In this document: positions 28,568 through 56,059 of the stretch, one piece after another
Position numbering within the stretch: position 1 is the stretch's first letter
Layout: each line of letters begins with the position of its first letter
Source: Apoderus coryli
Taxonomy: Eukaryota; Arthropoda; Insecta; Coleoptera; Attelabidae
Direction of reading: 5' to 3'
Assembly: GCA_911728435.2 (NCBI GenBank)
Contig: OU452205.1
Coordinates: 19,400,080-19,464,079 of the forward strand
Length of the DNA stretch: 64,000 nucleotides
Notes under the pieces: model-generated
Seen by the model: only the letters and a program-made list of their open reading frames with translations
Databases searched by the model: none
What the model was told of the DNA's origin: nothing
Translations under genes and position numbers: made by a program

Positions 28568-28579
28568 ATGAAAATAAAC

Positions 28580-32846: not shown

Positions 32847-35196
32847 CCTTCCGGACGGGGCGCCAAGTCTCTGAGACCCGCCGTTCGGAGAACTAGTCGC
32901 CAATTTTCGTAAAATTGCAATAACCGCCGAGCGGTCCGTCTACCTGTTTATTTTTAGCTTCAGTAACTACACAGCAATTCGTGGGTGTATACGTGTTTGA
33001 GTTTTTAAAATATTTTAGTTTTGATCTGTGAGACCCGGCGCACCGGTTTACGTTTTTGTTTTTATATCTGGCTAGTTTTATTTTTTCTACGGTAAGTTAG
33101 AATAAATGACATTTATTTTGTATTGTATAATTAAAATAATTATTAATTTAGCAGTAATGTCCAATTACGAGGAAGAGCAGGAAAAACTCCGTAAATTATG
33201 GGATGAAGCTGATTCGGACGTAGATCCGGATTCAGAGCCAGATGACGATGAAGAGGAGTTGGCTTTTGAAACAGACATAGTAGAAACCCGAAGTACCGAT
33301 AGTGATTCAGAGCAAGAGTGCAATGATAGCAATGATGACTATATACCCCTTGAAAAATCACCAAGAATCCCAACTTTCATTGGTAAAGATGGAATAACGC
33401 GATGGAATAAACATTGTCCAAACAAAGCAGTAAGAACTAGAAAGGAAAACATCATCGTTCGGTTACCAGGCGTCAAGAACTGTGGAAAAAACGCCAAACC
33501 AGCTGTTGAATGTTGGTCACTATTTTTTACCGATGAAATGCTTAGCATTATAGTGGAAAGCACAAATCTTTATATCTTTAAATTGGCTCAAGGTTATGCA
33601 AGAGAGAGAAGAGGAAAAATCACGGACTTTTGTGAAATAAAAGCTTTTCTCGGTCTATTATATTTGGCGGGGACTCTTAAAAGTGGACGACTTAATACAA
33701 AAGAGCTGTGGCAAAGAAATGAACTTGGCATTGAACGCTTCTGGTTAGTGATGTCTCACGATCGATTTCATTTTCTTCTTCGATGCATTCGGTTTGACGA
33801 CCTGACAACAAGAGAGGAAAGGAAACAATTTGATAAACTAACTCCAGTCAGAAACTTATTTGACCTTTTTGTTGAAAACTGTAAAAACACATATACAGTT
33901 GGAGCAAACACAACAATTGATGAAAAGCTTGAGGCATTTAGAGGGCGATGTGGTTTTAGGCAGTATATTCCAAGTAAGTCTAACAGATACGGAATAAAAA
34001 TATTTGCTCTAGTTGATTCTGCTACGTCTTATGCTTCAAATCTGGAGGTTTACGTGGGAAAGCAGCCTGAGGGTCCATATCAACGACCTAATAACCCCCA
34101 AAATATAGTTATGAGGCTAATAGAACCTATATCTGGGACTAATCGTAATCTTACCTGTGATAATTGGTTTACCAGTGTTGAATTGGTGAAAAAATCACAT
34201 ACGTGGGTACAATAAAAAAAAACAAAAGAGAATTGCCTCCTGAATTTTCCGACACAAGAGCTCGCCCGTCATGTTCCTCAATGTTTGGCTTTCAAAAAGA
34301 TATGACTATAGTGTCTTACATACCGAAAAAATATAGAAATGTTATTCTTATATCCAGCTTACATCATGATGATGAGATTGATGCATCTACAGCAGAAAAA
34401 TGCAAACCCGCTATAATAACCTATTATAACCATACCAAGGGAGGTGTAGATAATCTCGACAAATTGTCTGCTACGTATGATGTAGCCAGGAATACAAGAA
34501 GGTGGCCGATGGTGATCTTCTATTCAATGATGAATATGGCTGGGGTAAATTCCCAAATTATTTATGCTTGTAATAATAAAACATACAAGATTGTAAGAAG
34601 GTTATATCTAAGAGATGTTGGATTATCATTGACAAAAGATCATTTGGTGCGACGTTCTTACGAAACAAATGTTCCCAGGACGGTAAGACAAAGGAGACAA
34701 GAAGTTGCTGGAACAGAGGAAGCCAATAGAGATGAAAACATCCAACCAGGTACCAGAAAACGATGTTTTTTTTTGTAAAAAAGATTCAAAAACAAAATAT
34801 TTTTGCAAAAAATGTAAAAAATTTGTCTGCCTAACTCATCTCCATGCTTGGTGTTCTGAGTGCTCAGAAACTGCAATAAACCAATAAAGTCTATTGTCTT
34901 ATGATATTGTTACAATGTTTGACTAGAAAATATTTCTTTGTTTATCTACATATTTTTTATTTCCAGTTTTCAGGATATGTGACAATTTTTGACAACAAAT
35001 ATTTAAATAATAAATTTGTGCCTTTGTATATTTAAACCATTTTTTTTAATATAAAATCTGTAATTAAAAAGGTGTATTTTTTTCATTAAAACATCACATA
35101 AAAGCTATCATAAACAAAAACACGATTTTTTTAGATGGGTCTCTGAGACCCGGCGCCCCGTTTCAAGATCTATTCGGAGGCGCCCGGCCCGCAAGG
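32847..35196 (+). mobile_element. piggyBac-like transposon
   Basis: 2350 bp, flanked by TTAA (32843-32846 and 35197-35200). The ends pair as CCTTCCGGACGGGGCGCC against CCTTGCGGGCCGGGCGCC. A second inverted motif TCTCTGAGACCC lies near both ends. It contains a piggyBac transposase in three frames. The insertion falls in copy C of repeat R, and removal rebuilds the repeat monomer. Confidence 0.95.
33157..34887 (+). pseudogene. piggyBac transposase, two frameshifts
   Basis: The likely start is the second Met (33157, MSNYEEEQEK), giving an acidic N-terminus then the DDE core. D272 of the first frame lies in 'TTIDEKLEAFRGRC' and D352 in 'CDNWFTS'; the third Asp lies in 'GGVDNLDKL' of the second frame (34203-34778). 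The first break, near 34190-34210, may also have lost a few codons before 'TYVGTIKKNKREL'. The second is one extra T in a run of nine at about 34765-34774. After it the cysteine-rich zinc domain (CKKC, CLTHLHAWC, C) is readable to 34887. All catalytic residues survive, so the copy is recently broken. The enzyme would excise precisely at TTAA. Confidence 0.92.
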
Positions 35197-36628
35197 TTAA
35201 AAAAAGGGTCAAAAACGAAAAAAAAATGTTTCTCAAATATACCAGAAAAATTGACTAATTATATATAGCTTTGATATAAGATAACCTAAAAAATGCAGCA
35301 TAAAATTTTTATTTACATAGGCGTTCGGAAATAGTAGAAAAAGGGGTAAAATAAAAAAAAAATTAAATGTAAAAATTTTTATATTTAACTAGATGAATTG
35401 GTGTTAAAAATACACGACAAAAATTAATGTACCATAGGCGTCCGTGAAAATTCTATAAAAGGGTCAGAAAAAATTTGTATCCGTGATAACTCAAAAACCA
35501 CTTAACGGATTTTAACCAAATTTGGTACGAAAATACTACAGGATATTTATAGGTGGTGATTAACATTGAGCGTAGGCAAGGGGTTTAAAAGAGGGTTCAA
35601 AAAATTTAAAAAATCATAGTTCTTAAACTTATCCCAAATATTGAATAATTTTTCATAGTTGTGATAGAATATAACCTAAAAAATGTTACATAAAAGAATT
35701 GGTTCACACAGGCGTTCGAAAATAGTCTAAAAAAGGGATCAAAAACGAAAAAAAATGTTTCCCAAATATACCAGAAAAATTGGCTAATTATATATAGCTT
35801 TGATATAAGATAACCTAAAAAATGCAGCATAAAATTTTTATTTACATAGACGTTTGTAAATAGTAGAAAAAGGGGTAAAATAAAAAAAAATAAAATGTAA
35901 AAAATTTTATATTTAACTAGGTAGTTGAATTGGTGTTAAAAATACACAACAAAAATTAATGTACCATAGGCGTACGTGAAAATTCTATAAAAGGGTCAGA
36001 AAAAATTTGTATCCGTGATAACTCAAAAACTACTTAACGGATTTTAACCACATTTGATACGAAAATACTACAGGATATTTATACGTGGTGATTAACATTG
36101 AGCGTAGGCAAGGGGTTTAAAAGAGGGTTCAAAAATTTAAAAAATCATAGTTCTTAAACTTATCCGGAATATTGAATAATTTTTCATAGTTGGGATAGAA
36201 TATAACCTAAAAAATGTTACATAAAAGAATTGGTTCACACAGGCGTTCGAAAAAGGGTCAAAAACGAAAAAAAAACAATTTTGTTTACATAGGCTTTCGT
36301 AAATAGTAGAAAAGGGGGCAAAATAAATTTTATAATAAAACTAAAAAAAAAATCAATTAATTTGCGTTCAAGAACTTGGCCTCGATCTGAAATATAAAAT
36401 ATCTGCGTATAAATAGTGCCTCCAAAGAGAAGAAAAAGGCACAAAACCCGATACTTAAAAAAAAAATAGCTGACGTCTAAAACAAAACAAAAATTTATTA
36501 AATTTAGATAAATGACAAAAAGGTCATAAAATTAATATTTTTACACTTAAATATGGAGAGCTATTCGTGCCTCGGGGGCAACAGTTTATTTCTGTAATTT
36601 TTTAACAATACTCTATAATATTGCATTA

Positions 36629-38284: not shown

Positions 38285-39138
38285 TACAGGGTGTTTCTAA
38301 AAAAGCTGGACAAAATGTGAGCAAATTGGGGACATCTAATCATGAAAAAAACCTAAATTGTAATTTTTCGAAACGTCCTTATTTACAAAGATACAGGGTG
38401 TTAAAGATGACTGCCTGAGGACGATTTTTTTGAAGTATTTTCGAAACGAATAAAGATGAATTAATCAAAGGTAGTATATTAATTCACCTAGATAAATGTC
38501 GTAAACTGACATGAAATTAGATAAAAAAGGATGACCATAGGTGCGTAAACGGGGGGACTCTTGCCTTAATTATGACCTAACATTTTTTCCTTGTGATTTT
38601 CGAGAAATTCGAGTTTGAAAATTTTAGGACAAAACTGGTCCTTAGTAAACAGCATTAATAAAATTATTGAAATACGGTTTGCTAACGGAAAGTTTTCCAA
38701 AATTTTATTAATGCTTTGTACTAAGGACCAGTTTTGTCCTAAAATTTTCAAACTCGAATTTTTCGAAAACCTTTAAGTTTTTCGAGAAAAAAGAAGTATA
38801 CCTTTTTTTGTAGAAAACTTGATTTTATAACATTTTTAACACAAAGTGAATGAAAATCACAAGGAAAAAAAGTTAGGTTATAATTGAGGCAAGGGTCCCC
38901 CCGTTTACCCACCTATGGTCATCCTTTTTTATTCAATTTCATGTCAGTTTACAACATTTAACTAGGTGAATAAATATGCTACATTTGATTAATTCATCCG
39001 TATTCGTTTCGAAAATATTTCAAAAAAATCGTCCTCAGGCAGTCATCTTTGTAAATAAGGATTTTTCGAAAAATCACAATTTAGTTTTTTTGTTCGTTTT
39101 GCTTTCTTGAACCTTGGTTTTTAATTATAATTACTTTT

Positions 39139-40472
39139 TAGCTCTCCATATCATATATATAATATATGTATATATGGAGACTATTAGTTTCATGAAAATT
39201 TTTTTTTTTTTAATTTCACCGGAAATACTTGTTTTTGGTCATTTTGTACATAAATAAGTAGTTTTAAAAAAATGTCTGTCTGTCTGTCTGTATGCACGAA
39301 AACGCAAAAACCGCTTAACAGATTTTAACCAAATTTGGTACAAAAATACTATTGGACATGGCAAGGAGCTGATTAGATTTTGGGAAACATTGAGCGTAGG
39401 CAAAGAGTTTAAAAGAGGGTTCAAAAATTAAAAAAAATCATAGTTCTTAAACTTATCCGAAATACTGCATAATTTTTTACGCATTTAATTGAATATAACC
39501 TAAAATATTGAACATAAAATATTAGACCACATTGGCGTTCGAAAATAGTGTAAAATGGGGTAAGAAAGATTAAAAAAAAAAGTATTTCTTAAAAATAGCA
39601 GAAATATTAACTAGTTATTTATAGTTTTGATAGAATATAACCTATAAAATGTGTCATGAATATCTTACTTTCATAGGCGTTCGAAAATAGTGGAAAAGGG
39701 GTCAAAACATAAAAAATATATATTTCCTAAACTTATTCGAAATATGGAATAATTTTTCATAGTTGTGATACAATATAAGCTAAAAAATGTTACATAAAAG
39801 AATTAGTTCACACAGGCGTTCGAAAATAGTCTTAAAAAAGGGTCAAAAACGAAAAAAAAATGTTTCCCAAATATACCAGAAAAACTGGCTAATTATATAT
39901 GGCTTTCATATAAGATAACCTAAAAAATGCAGCATAAAATTGTTATTTACATAGGCGTTCGTAAATAGTAAAAAAGGGGTAAAATAAAAAAAAATTAAAA
40001 TGTAAAAAATTTTATATTTAACTAGTTGAATTGGTGTTAAAAATACACGACAAAAATTAATGTTCCATAGGCGTCCGTGAAAATTGTATAAAAGGGTCAG
40101 AAAAAAATTGTATCCGTGATAACTCAAAAACCACTTAACGGATAACCTACAACATGCAGCATAACAATTTTGTTTACATAGGCATTCGTAAATAGTAGAA
40201 AAGGGGGCAAAATAAATTTCATAATAAAACTAAAAAAAAATCAATTAATTTGCGTTCAAGAACTTGGCCTCGATCTGAAATATAAAATATCTGCGTATAA
40301 ATAGTGCCTCCAAAGAGAAGAAAAAGGCACAAAACCCGATACTTAAAAAAAAAATAGCTGATGTCTAAAACAAAACAAAAATTTATTAAATTTAGATAAA
40401 TGACAAAAAGGTCATAAAATTATTACTTTTACACTTAAATATGGAGAGCTATTCGTGCCTCGAGGGCAACAG
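39139..40472 (-). repeat. Repeat family R, copy D (complete, short)
   Basis: From TAGCTCTCCATATCATAT (3' hairpin end) through CACCGGAAATACTTG, a short GTCT microsatellite (about 39275-39292) and about ten monomers to the 5' end at CTATTCGTGCCTCGAGGGCA. It keeps both ends, which makes it useful for defining the element. Confidence 0.85.
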
Positions 40473-40480
40473 TTTATTGT

Positions 40481-40880
40481 TATTTCTTTTGGGTAATTAG
40501 GTTCGAATTTTTGAAATGAAGATTCCTTAATTCATACTTGTAAATAATTGGTTTAGCCAAACCATTAAAATTTGTCTTTTATTTTTTTAATTTTATCATT
40601 CGACGTTTCGACAATGGTTATTGTCTTCTTCATGGACCATATTATACTATTTCCTAATATCTTCAATTCAATTCAACATGATGTTGTAGGGTTAGAAACA
40701 AGATATTAGGAAATAGTATAATGTGATCCATGAAGAAGACAATAACCATTGTCGAAACGTCGAATGATAAAATTAAAAAAATAAAAGACAAATTTTAATG
40801 GTTTGGCTAAACCAATTATTTACAAGTATGAATTGAGGAAATCATTTCAAAAATTCGAACCTAATTACCCAAAAGGAATA
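40481..40880. mobile_element. Hairpin (snap-back) MITE, 400 bp
   Basis: Two arms of about 180 bp (40481-40662 and 40699-40880) pair with few mismatches around a ~36-bp loop. Landmarks: TTTTGGGTAATTAGGTTCG at the ends, TCGACGTTTCGACAATGGTT and AATGGTTTGGCTAAACCA inside. No coding capacity. It lies next to copy D. Confidence 0.85.
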
Positions 40881-41526
40881 AAAAAAAGTAATTAAAATTA
40901 CAATTTAATTATTTTTGTCAAGTTAGATGTCCCCAATTCGCTCACAAATTTTGGCCATCTTTTTTAGAAACACCTTGTATATAAAAATATGCTTTAATCG
41001 TTTATATTTATTGGGTTTGTTTAAGAAAATATTTGATTTTAATTTGTGCAAATTAATTTATAAAATGCAAAAAGTTAAATACCGCCTAGGATTGGTAAAA
41101 TATGTAATGTCAAGAACGGCTGCAGCTGGTATTAGCTATATTTTTGAAATCAGAACAAAAAGACCCACATTTTTAGTTATAAATTCTAATTAGACCAAAA
41201 ACACTCAAACAAAAAAAAAAACACATATATAAATAGCGAAAATATGAATTATATTACTTAATATAGGTACATTTAAGTCAAATTTAACTACAAAATAAAA
41301 ATTAATATACATATTTACAAACAAATAGAAAACATGACAATATATTACACAGGCAAGGAAATTTAGATTTTAATAATAAAAAAAATAAAACCAACCTAAA
41401 GAAATAATAAAAGTAAACTCTCGAATATACTACAACAGTCAAAATATTAATCTTACATTTAAATAAAAATTAACAAAAAAATAAAATTTAAATATACATA
41501 AACAAATAAAAAAACACGAGACAATC

Positions 41527-42150
41527 TTACCCAGTTTTAAATTTCTTAAAACTAACATCTGTATGTTCCTCTACATACCAATGACGTTTAAAACGTCGTT
41601 TCCCTGTATTTCCACTCGGAAAATCATCATCATCGTCCACAATCACAATTTTAACCGGCGGCACTTCAATTAAGATGACATCGTCATCATCTCTAACACA
41701 TTGTTCAGTATTTTGGTCACCCACACACACTTGTCGGAATTCTGAAGCATCAGTTGGATATATCCTACATATCAGTTCATCTATCCCGTCAAGTTTTGAT
41801 GTAGGAAATACATCATTCCACGTAGAACGTAGCCTTAACAAATCCAATCGTATTTGTGTATCAGCCACTAAAAATGTATGGCAAAATACGTTTACAATAT
41901 TGACGGCAAAGAGTTTAATATACCGACGTCCTATGTTCTTTGCGATGCAATCCATTAAATAGAAAATTATTAATTTTACATTAGGCTTGACTTTGCTAAT
42001 TTGACTTTCAATTGCTTCAACAATCACTTCAGCATGTTGTAAGTATTCCTCCGCTAAACTTGTCAACATGTTGATTAAGGGCTTGTAGTTGTATGTTAAG
42101 TCTTCCAAGCTTGACGTATATTCTACTTTAATTTCTTCTGGAGTCGTCAT
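41527..42150 (-). CDS. Pcf11-type CID protein, left palindrome copy
   Basis: 207 residues, single frame, no intron. Residues ~7-130 match the CTD-interacting domain of the cleavage factor Pcf11: 'SSLEDLTYNYKPLINMLTSL', 'YLMDCIAKNIGRRY' (the D-x-I-x-K-N segment lies in the CTD-binding groove), and 'LRSTWNDVFPTSKL'. In Pcf11 this eight-helix fold binds the phosphorylated tail of RNA polymerase II. The rest is unlike Pcf11: two hydrophobic-acidic stretches, DDDDVILIEV (154-163) and VKIVIVDDDDD (166-176), resemble SUMO-interacting motifs, and KRRFKRH (184-190) could be a nuclear localisation signal. Host Pcf11 is a far larger protein, so this is a captured or retrocopied domain. Expression is unknown. 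Confidence 0.85.
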   Translation of the reverse strand: MTTPEEIKVEYTSSLEDLTYNYKPLINMLTSLAEEYLQHAEVIVEAIESQISKVKPNVKLIIFYLMDCIAKNIGRRYIKLFAVNIVNVFCHTFLVADTQIRLDLLRLRSTWNDVFPTSKLDGIDELICRIYPTDASEFRQVCVGDQNTEQCVRDDDDVILIEVPPVKIVIVDDDDDFPSGNTGKRRFKRHWYVEEHTDVSFKKFKTG

Positions 42151-42556
42151 TGTTTTTGTAGTTTTAAAAATTAGATAGGTGGCACCAAAGAAACGAAACT
42201 ATTAAAGATTTTGTTTGAACTTACTATTAGTACCACTTGAAAATACAATATTTTTACAGTCTACGGAGTTTATAAACGAAATGGTCTATTACACAGATCT
42301 GTTTGAGAGATAGCTGGGATATCTGCATACTTATATACAATTCAAGGGACACATCAGGTAAGTACGATTTAAAAATAACTTAAAAGTAATAAAACCCATA
42401 CTACCTAGATTAAGGTAGAAGGTGGTTGTTACAATAATCCTTTTTCCTAATTACACAGCATAAAAGTCCCAACAATTTTTCCGTATAAGGTCAAATTATT
42501 AAATACCTAATACCTGATGAGGATATTCTACCAATTAGGCTTAAAATATTTTACTA

Positions 42557-44329
42557 CAGGGTGATTGCTGGTCGATAGTACCTTAGAAATTTTGGGAAAA
42601 GTAACCATACCATGTTTTGAAAATTTAAGTGATTACTCAGGTCAACCCAGTCTATAATATTGTCATATTTGCAGAACTTCCGGTTTCTTCTTTCAAATCG
42701 CACTTGGTGGTCGCAAATTTAACATTTAATTAACTTTTGATTATCTTTAAAGTTTCTTAAAAATATGCGAAACAAACGCAAAAAAAAACGAATTTATTAA
42801 CTCTTTAAGGTATTAATTAAACATTTGTATTTCTTGTTATGTATGATATAATCTTATAAAATATTTTATTTTTTCAACAAATGGTGAGTGTAATATAAAA
42901 TAGAACATTCATATAAATGTAACATACTTATATTGTATATCATTAAGGGTAATGTACAGGGTGTCCCAAACTCGGCGCCCCAGGCCTATTGTATGAAAAC
43001 CAGATAAGATAATAGAAATCTTTTTTAAAGGGTAAATTGAGTTGCGCTAAGATCCATTTTGGGAAAGCAAAATATTTGTTTCCAATTTCGCGAAATGGAG
43101 AAAATGACGTCATCAATGTTATTTGTCCACAAACATACCTATATTTTGCTACTACAATCAAAAAGATCTATTTTTTCCAAACACTTTTCGAAAAAAAATA
43201 ATTTCTATCTCTTTTCGTTAAAAAGTTAGCGCGCCCACACAAAAAAAATACTTAAATATTATTTAATTTAGTAATGTTACCAAACAAGTGCTCCATGGAA
43301 AAAATTATTCTTTTCATTATTAATGTATAGTGCAGGCAATGTCTCATCATATTTGTTTCTTTCAATTGTCAGCCATATTTTTTCGACAAAGAAAATAATA
43401 AAAATTAGATAATAAACCAAAAAATGTGATACAATAATAAGTTTAAAATTGCTTTCCATGTAGCATTTGATGATTTATATGGTTAAGTCAAATATCTTGA
43501 AAAACATTTTTTTGTTCATAAAATCATATATTTTCGTTTGTCGAGAACATCTTTTTGGTATAGACTTTGTAAATAATTACCTTCCGTATACAGGGTGTCC
43601 TACGGTGGCAACCCATTAGATTATTTCAGAAACTACTTCGAATTCAATTTTGAAAATTTCAGTGCCTATATTGTCAAATATGCTCCACTCAAATAATATA
43701 ATAGCAACGGCATAGCACTTCCGGTTATACCGGAAGTTGATGGCAACTTTGTTATTTTAAATAGAACACCCTATATATTATTACATTTTTGGATTCTAAA
43801 TAAGATTTCAGACATATTTCATGTATCATGTCCTATACCTTAAGTCAGTCGTTTTTGAGTTATATCAAGAATTATGTCAAAATTGACAGTTTAGGGCTCC
43901 ATAAGAATTCCGTTTTTTCCTTGTAAATCAGTATTTAATAATTATTTTGCAGGTATCTTCTTATCAGGTGGGATCTTCTTGTTCGAATTGACAAGACATT
44001 TTCTGATTAGTTTATACAGGGTGGTCAAAAAATTATATTGAAACCGGTTCAAGAAAAACAGTTGAAAGTCAATTTTTTCAAATGGAATGGGTATATTATT
44101 ATTATTTTATCTTTCTTAGCATTAAAAAATAATGCAATTTTGTAATAGGTTATCATTTTCTAAAATGCATAGTTTTCGAAATATCGTCATTTAAAATTTT
44201 TCTGCAGCGCCTGCCGTTGTCTACATATTATAGACTGGGTTGACCTGAGTAATCACTTAAATTTTCAAAACAATGGTATGGTTACTTTTCTCAAAACTTC
44301 TAAGGTACCATCGACCAGCAATCACCCTG
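42557..44329. mobile_element. Tc1/mariner-type element at the palindrome dyad
   Basis: 1773 bp with TA on both sides (42555-42556, 44330-44331) and ends starting CAGGGTGATTGCTGGTCGAT. The inverted repeats extend about 104 bp with a handful of differences. No transposase is readable. The interior contains other CAGGGTG-type ends on one side only (about 42957, 43589, 44017), so it is a composite of fragments of related non-autonomous elements. Confidence 0.82.
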
Positions 44330-44735
44330 TAGTAAAATATTTTAAGCCTAATTGGTAGAATATCCTCATCAGGTATTAGGTATTTAATAATTTGACCTTA
44401 TACGGAAAAATTGTTGGGACTTTTATGCTGTGGAATTAGGCAAAAGGATTATTGTAACAACCACCTTCTACCTTAATCTAGGTAGTATGGGTTTTATTAC
44501 TTTTAAGTTATTATTAAATCGTACCTACCTGATGTGTCCCTTAAATTGTATATAAGTATGCAGATATCCCAGCTATCTCTCAAACAGATCTGTGTAATAG
44601 ACCATTTCGTTTATAAACTCCGTAGACTGTAAAAATATTGTATTTTCAAGTGGTACTAATAGTAAGTTCAAACAAAATCTTTAATAGTTTCGTTTCTTTG
44701 GTGCCACCTATCTAATTTTTAAAACTACAAAAACA

Positions 44736-45359
44736 ATGACGACTCCAGAAGAAATTAAAGTAGAATATACGTCAAGCTTGGAAGACTTAACATACAACTA
44801 CAAGCCGTTAATCAACATGTTGACAAGTTTAGCGGAGGAATACTTACAACATGCTGAAGTGATTGTTGAAGCAATTGAAAGGCAAATTAGCACAGTCAAG
44901 CCTAATGTAAAATTAATACTTTTGTATTTAATGGATTGCATCGCAAAGAACATAGGACGTCGGTATATTAAGCTCTTTGCCGTCAATATTGTAAACGTAT
45001 TTTGCCATACATTTTTAGTGGCTGATACACAAATACGATTGGATTTGTTAAGGCTACGTTCTACGTGGAATGATGTATTTCCTACATCAAAACTTGACGG
45101 GATAGATGAACTGATATGTAGGATATATCCAACTGCTGCTTCAGAATTCCGACAAGTGTGTGTGGGTGACCAAAATAATGAACAATGTGTTAGTGATGAT
45201 GACGATGTCATCTTAATTGAAGTGCCGCCGGTTAAAATTGTGATTGTGGACGATGATGATGATTTTCCGAGTGGACATACAGGGAAACGACGTTTTAAAC
45301 GTCATTGGTATGTAGAGGAACATACAGATGTTAGTTTTAAGAAATTTAAAACTGGGTAA
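44736..45359 (+). CDS. Pcf11-type CID protein, right palindrome copy
   Basis: Same length and layout as the left copy, on the opposite strand and pointing outwards. I count eight amino-acid differences: S50R, K53T, I62L, F63L, D134A, T148N, R153S, N181H. Only about two synonymous changes separate the copies, so the pair gives no sign of purifying selection since duplication. The residues in the CID core and both SIM-like stretches are unchanged, except R153S just before the first one. Whether either copy is transcribed cannot be seen from the sequence. Confidence 0.85.
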   Translation: MTTPEEIKVEYTSSLEDLTYNYKPLINMLTSLAEEYLQHAEVIVEAIERQISTVKPNVKLILLYLMDCIAKNIGRRYIKLFAVNIVNVFCHTFLVADTQIRLDLLRLRSTWNDVFPTSKLDGIDELICRIYPTAASEFRQVCVGDQNNEQCVSDDDDVILIEVPPVKIVIVDDDDDFPSGHTGKRRFKRHWYVEEHTDVSFKKFKTG

Positions 45360-48300
45360 GATTGTCACGTGTTTTTTTATTTGTTTATGTATATTTAAAT
45401 TTTATTTGTTTGTTAATTTTTATTTAAATGTAAGATTAATATTTTGACTGTTGTAGTATATTCGAGAGTTTACTTTTATTTCTTTAGGATGGTTTTATTT
45501 TTTTTATTATTAAAATCTAAATTTCCTTGCCTGTGTAATATATTGTCATGTTGTCTATTTGTTTGTAAATATGTATATTAATTTTTATTTTGTAGTTAAA
45601 TTTGACTTAAATGTACCTATGTACCTATATTAAGTAATATAATTCATATTTCCCTATTTATATATGTGTTTTTTTTTGTTTGAGTGTTTTTGGTCTAATT
45701 AGAATTTATAACTAAAAATGTTGCACACGAGGCACGAATAGCTCTCCATATTTAAGTGTAAAAGTAATAATTTTATGACCTTTTTGTCATTTATCTAAAT
45801 TTAATAAATTTTTGTTTTGTTTTAGACATCAGCTATTTTTTTTTCAGTATCGGGTTTTGTGCCTTTTTCTTCTCTTTGGAGGCACTATTTATACGCAGAT
45901 ATTTTATATTTCAGATCTAGGCCAAGTTCTTGAACGCAAATTAATTGATTTTTTTTAGTTTTATTATAAAATTTATTTTGCCCCCTTTTCTACTATTTAC
46001 GAACGCCTATGTAAACAAAATTGTTATGCTGCATGTTGTAGGTTATCTGTTAAGTGGTTTTTGAGTTATCACGGATACAAATTTTTTCTGACCCTTTTAT
46101 AGAATTTTCACGGACGCCTATGGAACATTAATTTTTGTCGTGTATTTTTAACACCAATTCAACTAGTTAAATATAAAATTTTTTACATTTTAATTTTTTT
46201 TATTTTACCCCTTTTTTACTATTTACGAACGCCTATGTAAATAAAAATTTTATGCTGCATTTTTTAGGTTATCTTATATGAAAGCTATATATAATTAGCC
46301 AATTTTTCTGGTATATTTGGGAAACATTTTTTTTTCGTTTTTGACCCTTTTTAAGACTATTTTCGAAAGCCTGTGTGAACTAATTCTTTTATGTAACATT
46401 TTTTAGGTTATATTCTATCACAACTATAAAAAATTATTCAATATTTCGGATAAGTTTAGGAACTATGATTTTTTAAATTTTTGAGCCCTCTCTTAAACCT
46501 CTTGCCTACGCTCAATGTTCATCACCACCTATAAATATCCTGTAGTATTTTCGTACCAAATGTGGTTAAAATCCGTTAAGTGGTTTTTGAGTTATCACGG
46601 ATACAAATTCTGACCTTTTTATAGAATTTTCACGGACACCTATGGAACATTAATTTTTGTCGTGTATTTTTAATACCAATTCAACTAGTTAAATATAAAA
46701 TTTTTTACATTTACATTTTAATTTTTTTTTTTTTACCCCCTTTTTTTTACTATTTTCGAACGCCTATGTAACTAAAAATTTTATGCTGCATTTTTTAGGT
46801 TATCTTCTATCAAAGCTATATATAATTAACCAATTTTTCTGGTGTATTTGGAAAACATTTTTTTTCAGTTTTTGACCCTTTTTTAAGACTATTTTCGAAC
46901 GCCTGTGTGAACTAATTCTTTTATGTAACATTTTTTAGGTTATATTCTATCACAACTATAAAAAATTATTCAATATTTCGGATAAGTTTAAGAACTATGA
47001 TTTTTTAAATTTTTGAACCCTCTTTTAAACCCCTTGCCTACGCTCAATGGTAATCACCACCTGTAGTATTTTCGTACCAAATGTGGTTAAAATCCGTTAA
47101 GTGGTTTTTGAGTTATCACGGATACAAATTCTGACCCTTTTATAGAATTTTCACCGACGCCTATGGAACATTAATTTTTGTCGTGTATTTTTAACACCAA
47201 TTCAACTAGTTAAATATAAAATTTTTTACATTTTAATTTTTTTTTATTTTACCCCTTTTTTTACAATTTACGAACGCCTATGTAACTAAAAATTTTATGC
47301 TGCATATTTTAGATTATCTTCTATCAAAGCTGTATATAATTAGCCAATTTTTCTGGTGTATTTGAAAAACAATTTTTTTTCGTTTTTGACCCTTTTATAA
47401 GACTATTTTCGAACGCCTGTGTGAACTAATTCTTTTATGTAACATTTTTTAGGTTATATTCTATCACAACTATAAAAAATTATTCAATATTTCGGATAAG
47501 TTTAGGAACTACGATTTTTTAAATTTTTGAACCCTCTTTTAAACCTCTTGCCTACGCTCAATGTTCATCACCACCTATAAATATCCTGTAGTATTTTCGT
47601 ACCAAATGTGGTTAAAATCCGTTAAGTGGTTTTTGAGTTATCACGGATACAAATTCTGACCCTTTTATAGAATTTTCACGGACGCCTATGGAACATTAAT
47701 TTTTGTCGTGTATTTTTAACACCAAATCAACTAGTTAAATATAAATTTTTTTACATTTTAATTTTTTTTTATTTTACCCCTTTTTTTACTATTTACGAAC
47801 GCCTATGTAACTAAAAATTTTATGCTGCATATTTTAGGTTATCTTCTATCAAAGCTATATATAATTAGCCAATTTTTCTGGTGTATTTGAAAAACATTTT
47901 TTTTTTCGTTTTTGACCCTTTTTTAAGACTATTTTCGAACGCCTGTGTGAACTAATTCTTTTATGTAACATTTTTTAGGTTATATTCTATCACAACTATA
48001 AAAAATTATTCCATATTTCGAATAAGTTTAGGAAATATGTATTTTTTATATTTTGACCCCTTTACGAACGCCTATGAAAGTAAGTTATTTATGACACATT
48101 TCATAGGTTATATTCTATTAAACCTATAAATAATTAGTTAATATTTCTGCTATGTTTAAGAAGTACGTTTTTTTTAAATATTTTTACCCCATTTTACACT
48201 ATTTTCGAACGCCAATGTGGTCTAATATTTTATGTTCAATATATTAGGTTATATTCAATTAAATGCGTAAAAAAATATGCAGTATTTCGGATAAGTTTAA

Positions 48301-48600
48301 GAACTATGATTTTTTTTAATTTTTGAACCCTATTTTAAACCCCTTGCCTACGCTCAATGTTTCCCAAAATCTAATCAGCTCCTTGCCATGTCCAATAGTA
48401 TTTTTGTACCAAATTTGGTTAAAATCTGTTAAGCGGTTTTTGCGTTTTCGTGCATACAGACAGACAGACAGACAGACTGACAGACAGACAGACATTTTTT
48501 TAAAACTACTTATTTATGTATAAAATGACCAAAAACAAGTATTTCCGGTGAAATTAAAAAAATTTTTTTTTTCATGAAACTAATAGTCTCCATATATACA

Positions 48601-49103
48601 TGTTATATTAGATCAATAAGTACTATTACGTCTTATTTTTGAATTATCATATTATATTCCTAATTTTAATACGCAATTTCCCAGTAATTCAAACCCTTTG
48701 TTTTTCATTTTCAAAGACAATTCAAAGCCAATAATATTTACAAATTAAGCACGAATTATTGTTTATAAGTAATTTGATAATTATGTGAAAATCTACGATT
48801 TTCATAAATAATACAAATTCTAGATGCTATCTGATTCAGCACTTTAAAATAGTATAAATAGTATAAGAAAAATCAAATCAGGGAGATTCTAATAATAATA
48901 ATTCCGGCAGTCTAGAGATTCTTTTATTATAGTTCTCCGGCGGTCTTGATAATCTTAAGGATAATAATAATTATTATTATTCACTTGAACATTGTCGATC
49001 GTAGAAGTTCATTCTGTAATTTCAAAATTGAAAAATAAAGTTATGTGTTAATTGAATAAAGACCTTTTTTTAAAAAAGTAAACTTCAACATAAGTTTATA
49101 ACA
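48601..49103 (+). repeat. 5' LTR of errantivirus-like element (503 bp)
   Basis: TGTTATATTAG to TTTATAACA. Differs from the 3' LTR at about two positions (AATAATATTT/AACAATATTT; AGATGCTATC/AGAAGCTATC). AATAAAG occurs twice near its end (about 49035 and 49055). Confidence 0.95.
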
Positions 49104-49106
49104 AAT

Positions 49107-49124
49107 TGGCGCAGTCGGTAGGAT
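49107..49124 (+). other. Primer-binding site (tRNA-Ser type)
   Basis: TGGCGCAGTCGGTAGGAT starts three bases after the LTR. This is the site I know from the 17.6/297 group, which uses a serine tRNA. Confidence 0.8.
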
Positions 49125-49352
49125 CTCTAAAAAGGAGATCGCGAATAAAATAATAAAAATAAAAATAATTAAAAACAAGTGAGTGAAACTCCATTGGTCT
49201 TGTCAGATCAGGACTTGTGCTTGTGCCCCGCTCAGATCAGGACCCTGCATTCGTCGCCGCCGTACAAGATCGTATAGTCGCCCCGCTCAGATCAGGACAC
49301 TATATCGGTGGAACTAGCCACTTGTCAGCTCCAAGAAGCTCGAGCTAAGGCT

Positions 49353-49465
49353 CATTCCTAATTCAAAGCTCGTTGAAGCTCATAATTCAAAGCTCGTTGA
49401 AGCTCATAATTCAAAGCTCGTTGAAGCTCATAATTCAAAGCTCGTTGAAGCTCCAATTCAAAGCT
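49353..49465 (+). repeat. 24-bp leader repeats
   Basis: AAAGCTCGTTGAAGCTCATAATTC and variants repeat four to five times in the untranslated leader between primer-binding site and gag; the last units lose the AT-rich part. They create a short low-complexity open frame (49373-49702) that is not a gene. Confidence 0.9.
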
Positions 49466-49713
49466 CGTGGTAGCTCAAAATCCGAAGTTCATTGGAAAAT
49501 CCAAAGAAGATTTCCAAAATCAATCACAATCAAGATTTCCAGACCGCCAAACAAAGAAAAAAACGTGTTTTCAAGAAACGAAGACAAACGATCCAAGACA
49601 AAGTCAACATCAAATGTTTGTGACACTCTATATGTGAGTAATTTTAAAAATATTTTTGTAATAATTAAGATTGTTATTTCATTTATTATTGAGAAAATAT
49701 AAATTAATTTACA

Positions 49714-49860
49714 ATGGCTCAAAATACAAATCCAAATGAAGGTGAAATTGAAGCATTTAGGCTTTCAGAAATATTTTCATTAATTCTTGAATATGATGGA
49801 GACCAGATCGCTCTTAATACGTTCATCAATTCTTGTAGTTGTGCAATTGAATTGAATTGA
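49714..49860 (+). pseudogene. Errantivirus gag N-terminus, truncated
   Basis: ATG 49714 opens MAQNTNPNEGEIEAF and runs 48 codons to TGA at 49858, followed within a few codons by integrase sequence in another frame. The break marks the left edge of the large internal deletion, near a (GAATT)n slip at 49847-49864. Confidence 0.75.
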
Positions 49861-49881
49861 ATTGAAAGACTTTTTGTCACT

Positions 49882-51075
49882 TTGTATAAATGTGCTAATG
49901 ATATAAATGAATCAAAAACATATTATGTTGAAAATAATATTGAACTCCCGATATTGGAAATGTTTTCTTTTATTTTTGCAGAAAAAGATTTAAAATTAGT
50001 AATTTGTCAAAATATTATTATAACTCCTGATAATGATGAAATTCAAGTAATAATAGATAATTATCATTCAGGAAAAGCAAATCTACATAGAGGAATCAAT
50101 GAAACAATTCGTAGAATTAAAGAAAAATATGACTGGAATGGATTAACTAAAGATGTCGAAATGTTTATTAAAAAATGTGAAATTTGTCATAAAACTAAAA
50201 TTTATAGGCAAAATTTAAAAAATCGTTTGGTAATTACTGAAACTCCGAAAACTCCTTTTGAAAGAATCAATATTGATATTTTAGAAGTTCCAACCAAAAA
50301 CTATGTTTTAACAATTAGAGACGAACTAACAAAATTTACACAAGCTTATGCTTTACAAAATAAATCAGCTATTTCAGTTGCTAGTACTATACTCATATTT
50401 TTCCAACATTACGGTACACCCTTAAGAATACATTGCGATGGAGGAAAAGAATTTAATAATAAAATATTTAATGATTTATGTTTATTATATGATATTAAAT
50501 TAACATTTTCTAGCGTTGCTCATCCACAATCAAATGGATCTCTTGAAAGGTTTCACGCAACATTATTAGAAATGATTAGAATAAACAAAGTAGAAAATCC
50601 GAATGATCACCCATTAACTATTTTACCTTTCGCTTGTATATGTTATAATAATTCTGTAAATCAAACACATGGATTCACTCCATATGAGATAATATTTGGT
50701 CATACTTCAGGACGACCACCCGAAACTCTTTATAATGAAAAAGAATTAATTTCTAAGTATATTTTAGATTTAAATAATAAGATTAAGCATTTTTATAATA
50801 TGGCAAGGCAAAGAACTAATCTTAAGAAACAAAAAGCCAAGGAATACTTTGATAAAAATATAAATAAATCTAATGATAATTTTAAGGTAGGAGACAAAGT
50901 ATATGTCAAAGAATCTCAAATAAAAAATAAACTAGCAAATAAATTTAATGGTCCTTTTGATATTTTAAAAATATTTGATAACAATTCAGCATTAATTTAC
51001 AATCCTATTTCTGATAATACTTCACGAATAAATTTTGATCGTTTAAAACTATTTGAAGAAAGAGAAGTGAAATAA
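49882..51075 (+). CDS. Errantivirus integrase (partial pol)
   Basis: 397 codons. Zinc finger H62, H69, C99, C102; catalytic D132 ('NIDIL'), D186 ('HCDGGKEF') and E222 ('GSLERFH'), a D-35-E core without breaks; the C-terminal domain has 'FKVGDKVYVKE' and 'NKFNGPFDI'. It would insert cDNA into host chromosomes. RT and RNase H, normally in the same polyprotein upstream, are deleted, so there is no natural start; the first ~30 residues are the end of the RNase H linker. Env follows after a short gap. Confidence 0.9.
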   Translation: MYKCANDINESKTYYVENNIELPILEMFSFIFAEKDLKLVICQNIIITPDNDEIQVIIDNYHSGKANLHRGINETIRRIKEKYDWNGLTKDVEMFIKKCEICHKTKIYRQNLKNRLVITETPKTPFERINIDILEVPTKNYVLTIRDELTKFTQAYALQNKSAISVASTILIFFQHYGTPLRIHCDGGKEFNNKIFNDLCLLYDIKLTFSSVAHPQSNGSLERFHATLLEMIRINKVENPNDHPLTILPFACICYNNSVNQTHGFTPYEIIFGHTSGRPPETLYNEKELISKYILDLNNKIKHFYNMARQRTNLKKQKAKEYFDKNINKSNDNFKVGDKVYVKESQIKNKLANKFNGPFDILKIFDNNSALIYNPISDNTSRINFDRLKLFEEREVK

Positions 51076-51091
51076 TTTGATTTTCTGATAA

Positions 51092-52414
51092 AATATAATT
51101 GAATATATCGTAAATATAGAACAATCAATTTATGATATTTCAGATAATTTAAAATGGTTTAATTCAAAATTAGAAGTTATTGAAATTACACAGAAGTTAA
51201 CAGAATCATATTCATATATTGAAAATATTTTAAATGATATGTTAAATTCAATAACATTTGCAAGATTAAATATCATTCATACATCAATTATAACACCAAA
51301 AGACTTAATTGAAAATTTAAAATCAATATCTCAATCCTTACAAAAAAATAATTTACCTTTACCTATTTCAACAAATTCAATTGCTTCTTATCTTAATATA
51401 ATCGAATTAAAAGCTTTTCAAACAGATTCAAAAATAATATTTATTCTAGAAATACCATTAGTAGAAACGGAACTATATACAATATTTCGATTATTCCCAA
51501 TTCCTATTTATGATAATCGAACTGGTCTACATCACATTCTATCAACAAATCAAAAATATATAGCTAAAAGTGAAGAAAATGATGTTTTTATTCCTATAAA
51601 TGATTTAAGTAAATGTAAAGAATTATATTTTAAAACTATGCTTTGTAGAAATATTTATCATTACCCTATTGATAATAATGCTATATGTGAAGTTCAATTA
51701 TTGAGAGGTTTAGTTAAACTTCCAGAAACTTGTCAAATATCTTTTGTTTTTGCTAAAGAATATAAAATTCATTTATTAGAAACAAATAAATGGTTAATTG
51801 CAGTAAGTGAACAACTTCCAGTTAATATTAAATGTGTTACAAAAGAAGCTTATTCTGAAATTATTAAAACTAATTCAATTTTAACTCTACAACCAGATTG
51901 TTATGCTTTTGTAGGCACAACAAAAATTCAAGCAAGTAAAACTAAAAATTCTGATTTTCTTTATAAACCTCATTCAGTAATTATTCCATACGAGTGTTGT
52001 AAAAATATTCCAGATAAAATTAAATTACCTAAACTAAAACCTTTAAAATTAAATAATATTAATTTTGATGAATTAGATATAGCTAAACATAATTTAGATC
52101 AATATTCCAAAGACATTGATGATATTATTCATGAACCATTTATTAAAAAATACACACCTTGGTTTACCTATATAAGTATTACATTAATTATTATTGTTAT
52201 TATTGTTTACACATTTTGCAAATGTCGAAAGAAAAGAAAAATTCGTATTGGAATCACAACTTCATCAGATAATCCTCCTCAACCTCCAAATACAAGACTT
52301 TTTCAAATTAAAGAAAATTTTACAAAAATTTTACCTAACAGACGACCTTCAATCAGAATTAATGAACCGATTGAAGAAGGTTTTGAAATGAACGAAAATA
52401 AATCATTTGCATAA
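51092..52414 (+). CDS. Env-like glycoprotein, C-terminal part
   Basis: Open from 51092 (first Met at 51239) to TAA at 52412. Coiled-coil-prone N-terminal part, an ectodomain with paired cysteines, a single transmembrane helix near residues 312-328 of the Met-initiated frame ('ITLIIIVIIVYTFC'), then a basic cytoplasmic tail. This layout matches the membrane-anchored subunit of insect errantivirus Env, related to baculovirus F proteins. No signal peptide, furin-type site or fusion peptide is visible, so the N-terminal subunit has been lost with the deletion or lies in sequence no longer present. In intact relatives Env is made from a spliced RNA. Confidence 0.78.
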   Translation, partial: NIIEYIVNIEQSIYDISDNLKWFNSKLEVIEITQKLTESYSYIENILNDMLNSITFARLNIIHTSIITPKDLIENLKSISQSLQKNNLPLPISTNSIASYLNIIELKAFQTDSKIIFILEIPLVETELYTIFRLFPIPIYDNRTGLHHILSTNQKYIAKSEENDVFIPINDLSKCKELYFKTMLCRNIYHYPIDNNAICEVQLLRGLVKLPETCQISFVFAKEYKIHLLETNKWLIAVSEQLPVNIKCVTKEAYSEIIKTNSILTLQPDCYAFVGTTKIQASKTKNSDFLYKPHSVIIPYECCKNIPDKIKLPKLKPLKLNNINFDELDIAKHNLDQYSKDIDDIIHEPFIKKYTPWFTYISITLIIIVIIVYTFCKCRKKRKIRIGITTSSDNPPQPPNTRLFQIKENFTKILPNRRPSIRINEPIEEGFEMNENKSFA

Positions 52415-52539
52415 TGTTTTAGAAATAAGTTTGTTTTATATTTTATATTTTATCTAAGATTTTGTTCACAATTTCCTTTATTAAAGAAAGTAGAAATTTC
52501 AAGTAAAAGTCAAAGCATTGTGTAGCTTTAACTTTTTTT

Positions 52540-52552
52540 AATAAGAGGGAGT
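52540..52552 (+). other. Polypurine tract
   Basis: AATAAGAGGGAGT immediately precedes the 3' LTR, the usual plus-strand primer position. Confidence 0.75.
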
Positions 52553-53055
52553 TGTTATATTAGATCAATAAGTACTATTACGTCTTATTTTTGAATTATC
52601 ATATTATATTCCTAATTTTAATACGCAATTTCCCAGTAATTCAAACCCTTTGTTTTTCATTTTCAAAGACAATTCAAAGCCAACAATATTTACAAATTAA
52701 GCACGAATTATTGTTTATAAGTAATTTGATAATTATGTGAAAATCTACGATTTTCATAAATAATACAAATTCTAGAAGCTATCTGATTCAGCACTTTAAA
52801 ATAGTATAAATAGTATAAGAAAAATCAAATCAGGGAGATTCTAATAATAATAATTCCGGCAGTCTAGAGATTCTTTTATTATAGTTCTCCGGCGGTCTTG
52901 ATAATCTTAAGGATAATAATAATTATTATTATTCACTTGAACATTGTCGATCGTAGAAGTTCATTCTGTAATTTCAAAATTGAAAAATAAAGTTATGTGT
53001 TAATTGAATAAAGACCTTTTTTTAAAAAAGTAAACTTCAACATAAGTTTATAACA
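52553..53055 (+). repeat. 3' LTR of errantivirus-like element (503 bp)
   Basis: Same length and ends as the 5' LTR, with about two differences. Followed by the target duplicate TACA. Confidence 0.95.
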
Positions 53056-53087
53056 TACATATATTACATATATGATATGGAGAGCCA

Positions 53088-54058
53088 AAAACACAAACCA
53101 AAAATTTGCCAAAACATGCTATGTTGATAAACTATAAACGTGCGAGCGCATTACAAGTGGCATTGTCTGGTCATTACTAATCCTTCCACTGAATTAGTGA
53201 AAGTTCATAAATTTGCCTAAATGGCGTGACTACTATTTAAGCATACTGGCTTATAAACATTCCGACTTTTAACAAGTTTGTCAATTACTTTATTGGAGTA
53301 AAATAATAATTATCCATGTTTTGCAAAGCGTTCCGGCTTTCAACAAACTATCGTAAACAATTAATCGACGAACATTACATGTTTGAAAAGCGTTCCGGCT
53401 TTCATCAAACTTAATCGGAGATCCCGACATGTTTGCAAAGCGTTCCGGCTTTCAACAAACTATCTTAAACAGTTAATCGGAGAACATTATATGCTTGCAA
53501 AGCGTTCCGGCTTTCAACAAACTTAATCGGAAATCATGACATGTTTGCAAAGCGTTCCGGCTTTCAACAAACTATCGTAAACAATTAACCAAAGAACATT
53601 ACAAGTTTGCAAAGCGTTCCGGCTTTCAACAAACTATCGTAAAGAACTAATCGGAGATCATGACATGTTTGCAAAGCGTTCCGGCTTTCAACAAACTATC
53701 GTAAACTATTAATTGGAGAACATTACATGTTTGCAAAGCGTTCCGGCTTTCAACAAACTGTTCCTCAACATGTAAATCTAGGCAACATACCAACTATTAT
53801 AAACAAACTTGTTTGCAAAGCGTTCTGGCTTTCAACAAACTCAACATAAACTATTTTATCGGAGAACAGGACAATTGTTATGATAAAAGTTTACAAAGCG
53901 TTTCGCCTTTCAATAAAATTTTCGTATGCTATATAGTTAGCATCGGAGTAATGTCACAAACAGCTGTTAATTAACAAACATGACAATCGTAATCGTTCAC
54001 ACGTTAATACAAAAAACGTAAATAACTTTTTACCTGCTAACAAAAATTTAAAACTAGC
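53088..54058. other. Spacer between repeat copies E and F
   Basis: Unassigned DNA that contains the ~62-bp minisatellite listed separately. No gene. Confidence 0.5.
53316..53920 (+). repeat. ~62-bp minisatellite (about ten units)
   Basis: The core TTTGCAAAGCGTTCCGGCTT then TCAACAAACT recurs about ten times. Spacers alternate between a long form (CTATCGTAAACAATTAATCGG...) and a shorter one (TTAATCGGAGATC...). The core is nearly invariant while spacers vary; the last two units are degenerate. It could be mistaken for a CRISPR array but has neither constant spacer length nor unique spacers. Confidence 0.92.
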
Positions 54059-55926
54059 TGTTGCCCTCGAGGCACGAATAGCTCTCCATATTTAAGTGTA
54101 AAAGTAATAATTTTATGACCTTTTTGTCATTTATCTAAATTTTTGTTTTGTTTTAGACATCAGCTATTTTTTTTTTTTTTTTGTATCGGGTTTTGTGCCT
54201 TTTTCTTCTCTTTGGAGGCACTATTTATACGCAGATATTTTATATTTCAGATCTAGGCCAAATTCTTGTACGCAAAATAATTGATTTTTTTTTAGTTTTA
54301 TTATAAAATTTATTTTGCCCCCTTTTCTACTATTTACGAACGCCTATGTAAACAAAATTGTTATGCTGCATGTTGTAGGTTATCCGTTAAGTGGTTTTTG
54401 AGTTATCACGGATACAATTTTTTCCTGACCCTTTTATAGAATTTTCACGGACGCCTATGGAACATTAATTTTTGTCGTGTATTTTTAACACCAATTCAAC
54501 TAGTTAAATATAAAATTTGTTACATTTTAATTTTTTTTTCATTTTACCCCTTTTTTTTACTATTTACGAACGCCTATGTAAATAAAAATTTTATGCTGCA
54601 TTTTTTAGGTTATCTTATATGAAAGCTATATATAATTAGCCAATTTTTCTGGTATATTTGGGAAACATTTTTTTTTCGTTTTTGACCCTTTTTTAACACT
54701 ATTTTCGAACGCCTGTGTGAACTAATTCTTTTATGTAACATTTTTTAGGTTATATTCTATCACAACTATAAAAAATTATTCAATATTTCGGATAAGTTTA
54801 AGAACTATGATTTTTTAAATTTTTGAAACCTCTTTTAAACCCGTTGCCTACGCTCAATGTTAATCACCACCTATAATTATCCTGTAGTATTTTCGTACCA
54901 AATGTGGTTAAAATCCGTTAAGTGGTTTTTGAGTTATCACGGATACAAATTTTTTCTGACCCTTTTATAGAATTTTTACGGACGCCTATGGTACATTAAT
55001 TTTTGTCGTGTATTTTTAACACCAATTCATCTAGTTAAATATAAAATTTTTTACATTTTAATTTTTTTTTATTTTACCCCTTTTTCTACTATTTACGAAC
55101 GCCTATGTGAATAAAAATTTTATGCTGCATTTTTTAGGTTATCTTATATCAAAGCTATATATAATTAGCCAATTTTTCTGGTATATTTGGGAAACGTTTT
55201 TTTTTTGTTTTTGACCCTTTTTTTAAACTATTTTCGAACGCCTGTGTGAACCAATTCTTTTATGGAATATTTTTTAGCTTATATTGTATCACAACTATGA
55301 AAAATTATTCCATATTTCGAATAAGTTTAGGAAATATATATTTTTTATGTTTTGACCCCTTTTCCACTATTTACGAACGCCTATGAAAGTAAGTTATTCA
55401 TGACACATTTTATAGGTTATATTCTATCAAAACTATCAATAACTAGTTAATATTTCTGCTATTTTTAAGAAATACGTTTTTTTTTAATCTTTTTTACCCC
55501 ATTTTACACTATTTTCGAACGCCAATGTGGTCTAATATTTTATGTTCAATATTTTAGGTTATATTCAATTAAATGCGTAAAAAATTATGCAGTATTTCGG
55601 ATAAGTTTAAGAACTATGAATTTTTTTAATTTTTGAACCCTCTTTTAAACCCTTTGCCTACGCTCAATGTTTCCCAAAATCTAATCAGCTCCTTGCCATG
55701 TCCAATAGTATTTTTGTACCAAATTTGGTTAAAATCTGTTAAGCGGTTTTTGCGTTTTCGTGGATACAGACAGACAGACAGACAGACAGACATTTTTTTA
55801 AAACTACTTATTTATGTATAAAATGACCAAAAAGAAGTATTTCCGGTGAAATTAAAAATTTTTTTTTTTTCATGAAACTTATAGTCTCCATATATACATA
55901 TATTACATATATGATATGGAGAGCTA
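54059..55926 (+). repeat. Repeat family R, copy F (both ends present)
   Basis: TGTTGCCCTCGAGGCACGAA at the left, TAGCTCTCCATAT soon after, GGACGCC-type landmarks at about 54448 and 54976 (528 bp apart), (CAGA)n at 55768-55792, terminal hairpin and GATATGGAGAGCTA at the right. With copy D it is the best-preserved copy. Confidence 0.88.
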
Positions 55927-56059
55927 AAAAACAACTACTCCTTAAACTCCCCAGGCCACAGGCGAATCATATATTTTGCAATAACTCGTGTTCTGTTCGT
56001 CGAAAGATTTTTTTTTTTACTTCAAACCTATTATTCGGCAGTGCAGTTCCCTTCGAATG
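55927..56059. other. Short spacer
   Basis: Nothing recognised. Confidence 0.35.

Follow-up and report, generated by a model that had tools for sequence, protein, structure and literature searches.

A multi-copy retrogene of the Pcf11 CTD-interacting domain with an added tail, standing as an inverted pair in the beetle Apoderus coryli

Introduction

In the genome of the attelabid beetle Apoderus coryli (assembly GCA_911728435.2) a stretch of 64,000 nucleotides (nt) of contig OU452205.1, positions 19,400,080 to 19,464,079, here called the window, carries two open reading frames (ORFs) of 207 codons in the arms of a palindrome, and each of them encodes a domain of the kind that binds the C-terminal domain (CTD) of RNA polymerase II, the CTD-interacting domain (CID). 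The locus raises the question of where these ORFs come from, how they came to stand as an inverted pair, and whether their protein does anything. The sequence-only reading of the window had proposed a captured or retrocopied Pcf11-type domain, lying outside any host gene and spread as cargo of a repeat. The protein and DNA searches described here covered the 428-Mb genome, in which the window is C14:19400080-19464079.

We consider it probable, with moderate confidence and from comparison of sequences, that the ORFs are copies of an old processed retrogene of the Pcf11 CID joined to a new tail and arranged as an inverted pair, and that the protein reads the CTD as a stand-alone module, in competition with Pcf11. 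The domain, its parent and the copy census are taken first, followed by the selection acting on the copies, their proposed function and the origin of the palindrome.

The encoded protein

The palindrome, previously delimited as 41168..45720, consists of two inverted arms with 97.5% identity over 1503 alignment columns, separated by a spacer of 1564 nt, and the two intact 207-codon ORFs diverge from its centre, one per arm, at exactly the expected positions (Table 1). An alignment of the arms shows 23 substitutions and 5 gaps, none of the gaps falling inside the ORF, and the divergence is fairly even from zone to zone (3/103 for the inner end, 5/407 for the upstream part, 10/624 for the ORF and 5/353 for the downstream part).

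The proposed CID was confirmed by the Pfam profile PF04818, which matches the two proteins with E-values of 2.8e-10 and 2e-10 (scores of 40.9 and 41.3 bits, where the cut-off is 23.9) in an alignment spanning profile positions 13-115 of 120 (41 bits). Among solved chains the closest is the CID of yeast Pcf11 (E=2e-19), which stands about 13 orders of magnitude in E-value ahead of the next protein, RPRD1A (2e-6), with SCAF8 at 0.15. The CTD pocket of yeast Pcf11 is characterized by Asp68, Lys72 and helix-4 contacts in excerpts of PMC10317158 (the other papers named below are likewise cited from excerpts). The window copies keep Y64, D67, K71 and N72, the counterparts of the yeast helix-4 Tyr, Asp68, Lys72 and Asn73; in a distant copy of the family, H, Glu takes the place of the pocket Asp.

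The domain is followed by a tail (codons 133-207) with two hydrophobic runs among acidic residues and then a basic end, so that the two stretches resembling SUMO-interacting motifs (SIMs) and the basic patch described earlier are both present. The acidic segment is well kept in copy H (23 of 26 residues at codons 153-178), and two SIM-like motifs arise in 0.22% of 20,000 tail shuffles, with a pattern that was written after the tail had been seen. A search of the genome with the tail gave 12 matches, 11 of them within the family and the last at E=0.54, and thus no convincing match outside it; the idea that the tail belongs to Pcf11 or to some other gene was accordingly dropped, as no match for it was found in the host locus or elsewhere in the genome. 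Relatives of the protein were sought in a large protein set, where none of 65 candidates reached E<=0.001, in viral contigs, where a single-protein query suited to close relatives confirmed none (one stretch matched the pattern, unconfirmed), and in phage records, where none was found.

Table 1. Features of the palindrome and its surroundings, and copies of the retrogene in the genome
Feature	Position	Strand	Remark
Left arm, copy wL	41167..42660	gene on -	97.5% identity to 44225-45721
Right arm, copy wR	44225..45721	+	repeats the left unit's inner part in reverse orientation
CID retrogene copy wL, 207-codon ORF	41527..42150	-	
CID retrogene copy wR, 207-codon ORF	44736..45359	+	
CID of wL, codons 1-132	41755..42150	-	
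CID of wR, codons 1-132	44736..45131	+	host introns (after codons 53, 95) both absent
Acidic tail segment of wL, two SIM-like runs	41617..41694	-	
Acidic tail segment of wR, two SIM-like runs	45192..45269	+	codons 153-178
TATATAAG box, wL	42330..42337	-	
TATATAAG box, wR	44549..44556	+	187 nt before ATG; TCA initiator-like site ~33 nt on
Possible small terminal intron, GTAAGA...TTTCTTTAG, over stop codon	45356..45487	+	both sites conserved in H and all six young copies
5' flank of the unit, common to C7 copies	42661..43590	+	from genome matches to the centre
T3 left terminal inverted repeat, ~632 nt	43591..44222	+	high-copy DNA transposon; remaining T3 gone here
T1, transposon-like insert, 3' side of left gene	38287..40981	.	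repeat U (39141-40486) nested inside
Repeat unit U adjoining right arm	45721..48600	-	own end 53056-53087
Copies wL, wR	C14 (window)		both intact
Copies A, B, A2	C7		B and A2 intact
Copies E, F, H	C16		
Copy K (fragment)	C19		

Origin from host Pcf11

The host Pcf11 gene was located on contig C10 by the protein search, and its exon structure was compared with the copies. The host CID is split over three exons: a GTAAG donor closes exon a at copy codon 53, codons 54-95 correspond to exon b, and exon c follows 3.2 kb further on. The copies run without a gap through both junctions (53/54 and 95/96); since both parental introns are missing and the exons exactly joined, the family is a processed, RNA-derived retrogene, which bears out the suggestion of a captured or retrocopied domain. 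Host Pcf11 (Inr-a in Drosophila) and the copies are colinear over codons 1-132, with 80/132 identical residues in wR and 81/132 in wL (61%) and with the CTD-pocket residues kept. They differ in that the host has two introns in the CID and its exon c continues differently, whereas the copies leave this exon after codon 132 and end in a new tail of 75 residues, nothing like which is present in exon c; no Pcf11-like sequence past the CID was found in the copies. Beyond the CID the host exon presumably has the composition typical of Pcf11. The statement that the ORFs do not lie in a host gene was only half right: they form an old, long-selected family from a host-type gene and not a recent capture.

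The term "intronless" needs a qualification. Both host CID introns are absent, but the stop codon coincides in part with a strong splice donor, GGGTAAGA, an acceptor stands about 130 nt downstream, and copy H shares both sites, so that the gene may have a small terminal intron (45356-45487 in wR). If it were spliced, the protein would gain a short hydrophobic end in the young copies and a few residues only in H.

Apart from this family, another CID match was noticed at C20:10095395-10095772 (31 bits, profile positions 4-119, within an unbroken frame of 213 codons), and it is perhaps a second intron-poor CID gene.

Copies in the genome and evidence of selection

The ORF DNA has 10 matches in the genome, which correspond to at least nine copies on four contigs (the counts are lower bounds), and this supports the earlier view that the sequence lies in repeat DNA and has spread. 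All 207 codons are open in four of the nine copies (wL, wR, B and A2). In the tree wL, wR, A, B, A2 and E form one clade with bootstrap 100, here called the young copies, which are 0.5-2.7% apart and whose internal order is poorly supported, and F, K and H fall outside it. For copy K the site-class comparisons below mask positions -180 to 126, which the tree includes.

The strongest evidence of constraint comes from the distance to the host gene, in a comparison that took in six of the nine copies. Synonymous differences are saturated (pS 0.73-0.78), and nonsynonymous divergence is low (dN 0.28-0.32, pN 0.23-0.26). Neutral decay, simulated with a simple two-rate model, would give about 8 stops and pN 0.45 at 0.75 changes per site, and free drift at 0.3 changes per site would give about 5 stops, as against no stop observed in four copies. 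Saturated pS together with low dN therefore indicates long past purifying selection, unless the parent was the Pcf11 of another species. Within the family the comparison of H with wR gave a nonsynonymous to synonymous ratio of 2.02, below the neutral mean of 3.15 simulated with the same kind of model (P=0.027), and the four intact copies changed at 8/414 sites of codon positions 1+2 versus 41/958 sites of position 3 and flanks (p=0.038). A further test, in which the copies of the same six-copy comparison kept 34/42 residues shared by host and yeast versus 33/66 of the others (p=0.0012), is biased, as host-branch changes are counted only in the second class, and it is not relied on.

Several observations weigh against a functional protein. 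Part of the path from host to copies reflects the constraint on the host gene itself, and the parent of the retrogene may be the Pcf11 of another species. For H versus wR neither the CID alone (P=0.085) nor the tail alone (P=0.087) is significant; the site-class test gives p=0.054 in the six young copies, and codon positions 1+2 do not differ significantly from position 3 alone (p=0.11-0.37). Of the ten codons that differ between the wL and wR ORFs, 8 change the amino acid and 2 are synonymous; no constraint is seen on the path leading to F, where the nonsynonymous to synonymous ratio is 6.2. The 5' flank of H differs at 62/387 sites (a sum of bins, for which only -404 to -1 was used), which is little more than the 47/399 at codon positions 1+2. 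Sequence upstream of -106 in F and beyond about +770 in H is not homologous, so that the flank divergence computed for these two copies is too high. Finally, AlphaFold run without an alignment returned pLDDT 38 and gave the fold no structural support.

The same observations feed the most serious alternative, namely that the copies are now non-functional, being an old, once-working retrogene recently multiplied by repeat-driven duplication, whose frames are open only through youth. Frameshifts, stops or deletions in five of the nine copies agree with it, as do the closeness of the six young copies, the excess of amino-acid changes between wL and wR and the unconstrained path to F. It is opposed by the long selection that the host comparison demands, by the reduced change at codon positions 1+2 of the four intact copies, and by a TATA stretch that H and all six young copies still have. 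This explanation is possible, and we hold it to be the less likely one. Judged from the sequences, past constraint was strong, and present constraint is weak and unproven (p 0.04-0.06).

Proposed function

In all six young copies TATATAA(G/A) is found at -187 or -186 relative to the ATG; in H the stretch is present at -777, behind an insertion, in K it was not found, and F is not homologous in that region. This box is the inferred promoter of the copies, from which transcription would start. The resulting small protein, a CID free of the rest of Pcf11, would bind the phosphorylated CTD of polymerase II in competition with full-length Pcf11, its acidic SIM-like tail would bind SUMO, and Pcf11-dependent termination would be blunted or redirected. 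A free CID can act in trans, since the defects of the yeast CID mutant pcf11-13 are relieved when the Pcf11 CID is supplied by itself from an episome, as reported in the excerpted text of PMC4403260. The access to polymerase or to SUMO-rich sites suggested earlier may be gained in this way.

Retrogene families and repeat-driven duplication are already known. In Spodoptera frugiperda the retrotransposed intact-ORF copies described in PMC13251582 are similarly intronless, with open frames and relaxed constraint, whereas the Pcf11-CID retrogene long predates its present duplications and has an extra tail. A putative multi-copy, stand-alone CTD reader derived from the termination factor Pcf11, with a SIM-like tail and long selection on it, is described in none of the open-licence papers listed for Pcf11 with transposons or retrocopies, and in that literature no paper was found in which "CTD-interacting domain" and "SUMO-interacting motif" occur together. 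The family is a natural setting in which to ask whether termination can be tuned by free CIDs, and it exemplifies inverted gene pairs on either side of a transposon whose terminal inverted repeats are long; if the proposed function is true, a duplicated gene has gained a way to interfere with the ending of other genes' transcripts.

Origin of the palindrome and spread of the copies

The young copies share long segments. Window 40481-43421 is 97.7% identical to the C7 segment of copy B, and window 40665-43325 is 95.8% and 94.3% identical to those of A and A2, respectively; on C7 itself a direct duplicate of 7.2 kb (98.8% identity) carries A and A2. These shared stretches show, at the level of DNA comparison, that the young copies spread by duplication within transposon-rich segments.

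The same contig indicates how an inverted pair may arise. On C7 the copies A and B stand head to head, one on each side of T3, which there has a shortened right repeat, and the reversed flank of B matches the left unit of the window right up to the T3 end. In the window the right arm begins two bases past the T3 left repeat, at the mirror of position 42660. Arm and centre are contiguous across 42660/42661 in all three C7 copies, so the right arm of the window is the truncated one. Among the genome matches scored, those continuing from 42661 lie on C7 only, and shorter parts (query 289-590) match elsewhere. The T3 inverted repeat is covered by 37 of the 46 matches to the window centre outside the window, and several of these face each other as inverted pairs at a spacing of 1.0 kb (40 of 2711 candidates were scored). 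The transposase remnant of T3, read in the A2 duplicate, has a weak Tc3-type helix-turn-helix match of 20.5 bits, below its cut-off.

The plainest reading of this anatomy is that the palindrome formed by fold-back and then deletion: fold-back at the long inverted repeats of T3 would have produced a reversed copy of the flank, and the remaining T3 and part of the mirror arm would afterwards have been deleted, leaving the shorter form of the window. Inverted repeats near breaks yield inverted duplicates in yeast (excerpts of PMC10622511); the likeness lies in the repeats beside the break, and the difference is that the yeast case was shown and ours is inferred from anatomy alone. This reading is weakened by copy A, which lacks about 260 nt of the flank beside T3, and by the order of events, which is one of several possible; it is also possible that T3 inserted into the centre of a palindrome that already existed.

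The inverted pair suggests a second alternative, a source of hairpin RNA, in which a transcript through both arms would fold to a duplex of 1.5 kb and small interfering RNAs cut from it would silence the entire CID family. Long inverted arms of 97.5% identity are indeed present, possible targets 97-99% alike occur at four other places and one 92% alike at a fifth, and C7 contains a second head-to-head pair. There is also a precedent, the silencing of Dox by hp-Nmy in Drosophila simulans (PMC10317233, in excerpt), likewise a young gene family in repeats whose inverted copies could serve as hairpin RNA, with the differences that the domain here is a CID and not of the protamine/HMG type and that the hairpin RNA here would follow from DNA anatomy alone. 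The TATA boxes face outward from the palindrome centre, and repair makes inverted pairs without any function, which renders the explanation improbable. A selfish or conflict gene combining both ideas is very improbable as well: its free CID and SUMO-binding tail would displace Pcf11 on elongating polymerase, read-through of silent repeat-rich chromatin would let the gene and the surrounding repeats be expressed and copied, and its own inverted duplicates would supply the restraining hairpin RNA.

Spread as cargo of a single mobile element with its own ends, as the sequence-only reading had it, is not supported. Copies on four contigs and the transposon-like repeats adjoining those in the window, on C7, E and K could be taken for such an element that still spreads the gene. 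Common element ends of the kind expected of Pack-TIR or foldback cargo were not found across E, F, H and K: homology on the 5' side begins at about -404 (H), -347 (E, where the limit may stem from a T1-like insert) or -106 (F) relative to the ATG, and the 3' limits also vary. The young copies share, moreover, several kb of mixed transposons, as segmental or inverted duplicates do, and on C19 the site of T1 is empty: copy K (locus C19:13940500-13950499, at about 5075-5256 of it) joins the sequences that flank window 38287-40975; a T1-like piece lies further on within the same locus. Cargo of this kind we regard as very unlikely. In the Ssk-FB4 Pack-TIR family of Drosophila, as far as the excerpt of PMC8277862 describes it, a host-derived protein family has likewise multiplied along with inverted-repeat transposons, but in that family the introns have been retained and the gene lies inside an FB4 element, whereas the Pcf11-CID copies are processed and share no element ends.

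Palindromes are, as general knowledge has it, an assembly hazard, yet an artefact doubling a single host gene is barely credible in view of the 23 substitutions and 5 gaps between the arms, their different flanks and the further copies on C7, C16 and C19.

Two further structural readings were also tried. The flanking U repeats (39141-40486 and 45721-48600) were considered as one giant inverted terminal repeat of a foldback element. This was rejected, since other U copies are as close to the left U as the right U is, and since the C7 copy B has no U at that place. The CAGGGTG ends in the centre, considered as inverted repeats of a central element, were dropped, as the C7 copies have arm and centre contiguous.

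Other observations in the window

Between wL and wR there are only 4 transitions as against 16 transversions, the strongest skew among the 15 young-copy pairs; in the remaining pairs the ratio of transitions to transversions ranges from 16:12 to 10:24, and those including wR or E lean likewise. An Rfam scan at gathering scores gave no match, and the repeat motif, searched in viral contigs, had none either.

The repeat U occupies six stretches of the window (28567-32220, 32222-36590, 39141-40486, 45721-48600 with 53056-53087, and 54050-55930) and is recognized by subterminal AGCTCTCCATAT...ATATGGAGAGCT, a TGTC microsatellite, internal tandem units of about 140 nt and a hairpin near one end. Inserted within one U copy is an element at 32840-35199 with a Pfam DDE_Tnp_1_7 match (E=7e-52), which we take to be of piggyBac type. 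U itself appears to resemble the DINE-1/HINE non-autonomous Helentrons as they are described in the excerpted text of PMC4067079. The right-hand U is separated from its end by a retroelement with long terminal repeats (LTRs) at 48601-53055, whose LTRs of 503 nt are 99.6% identical and whose insertion site is the end hairpin of the U copy.

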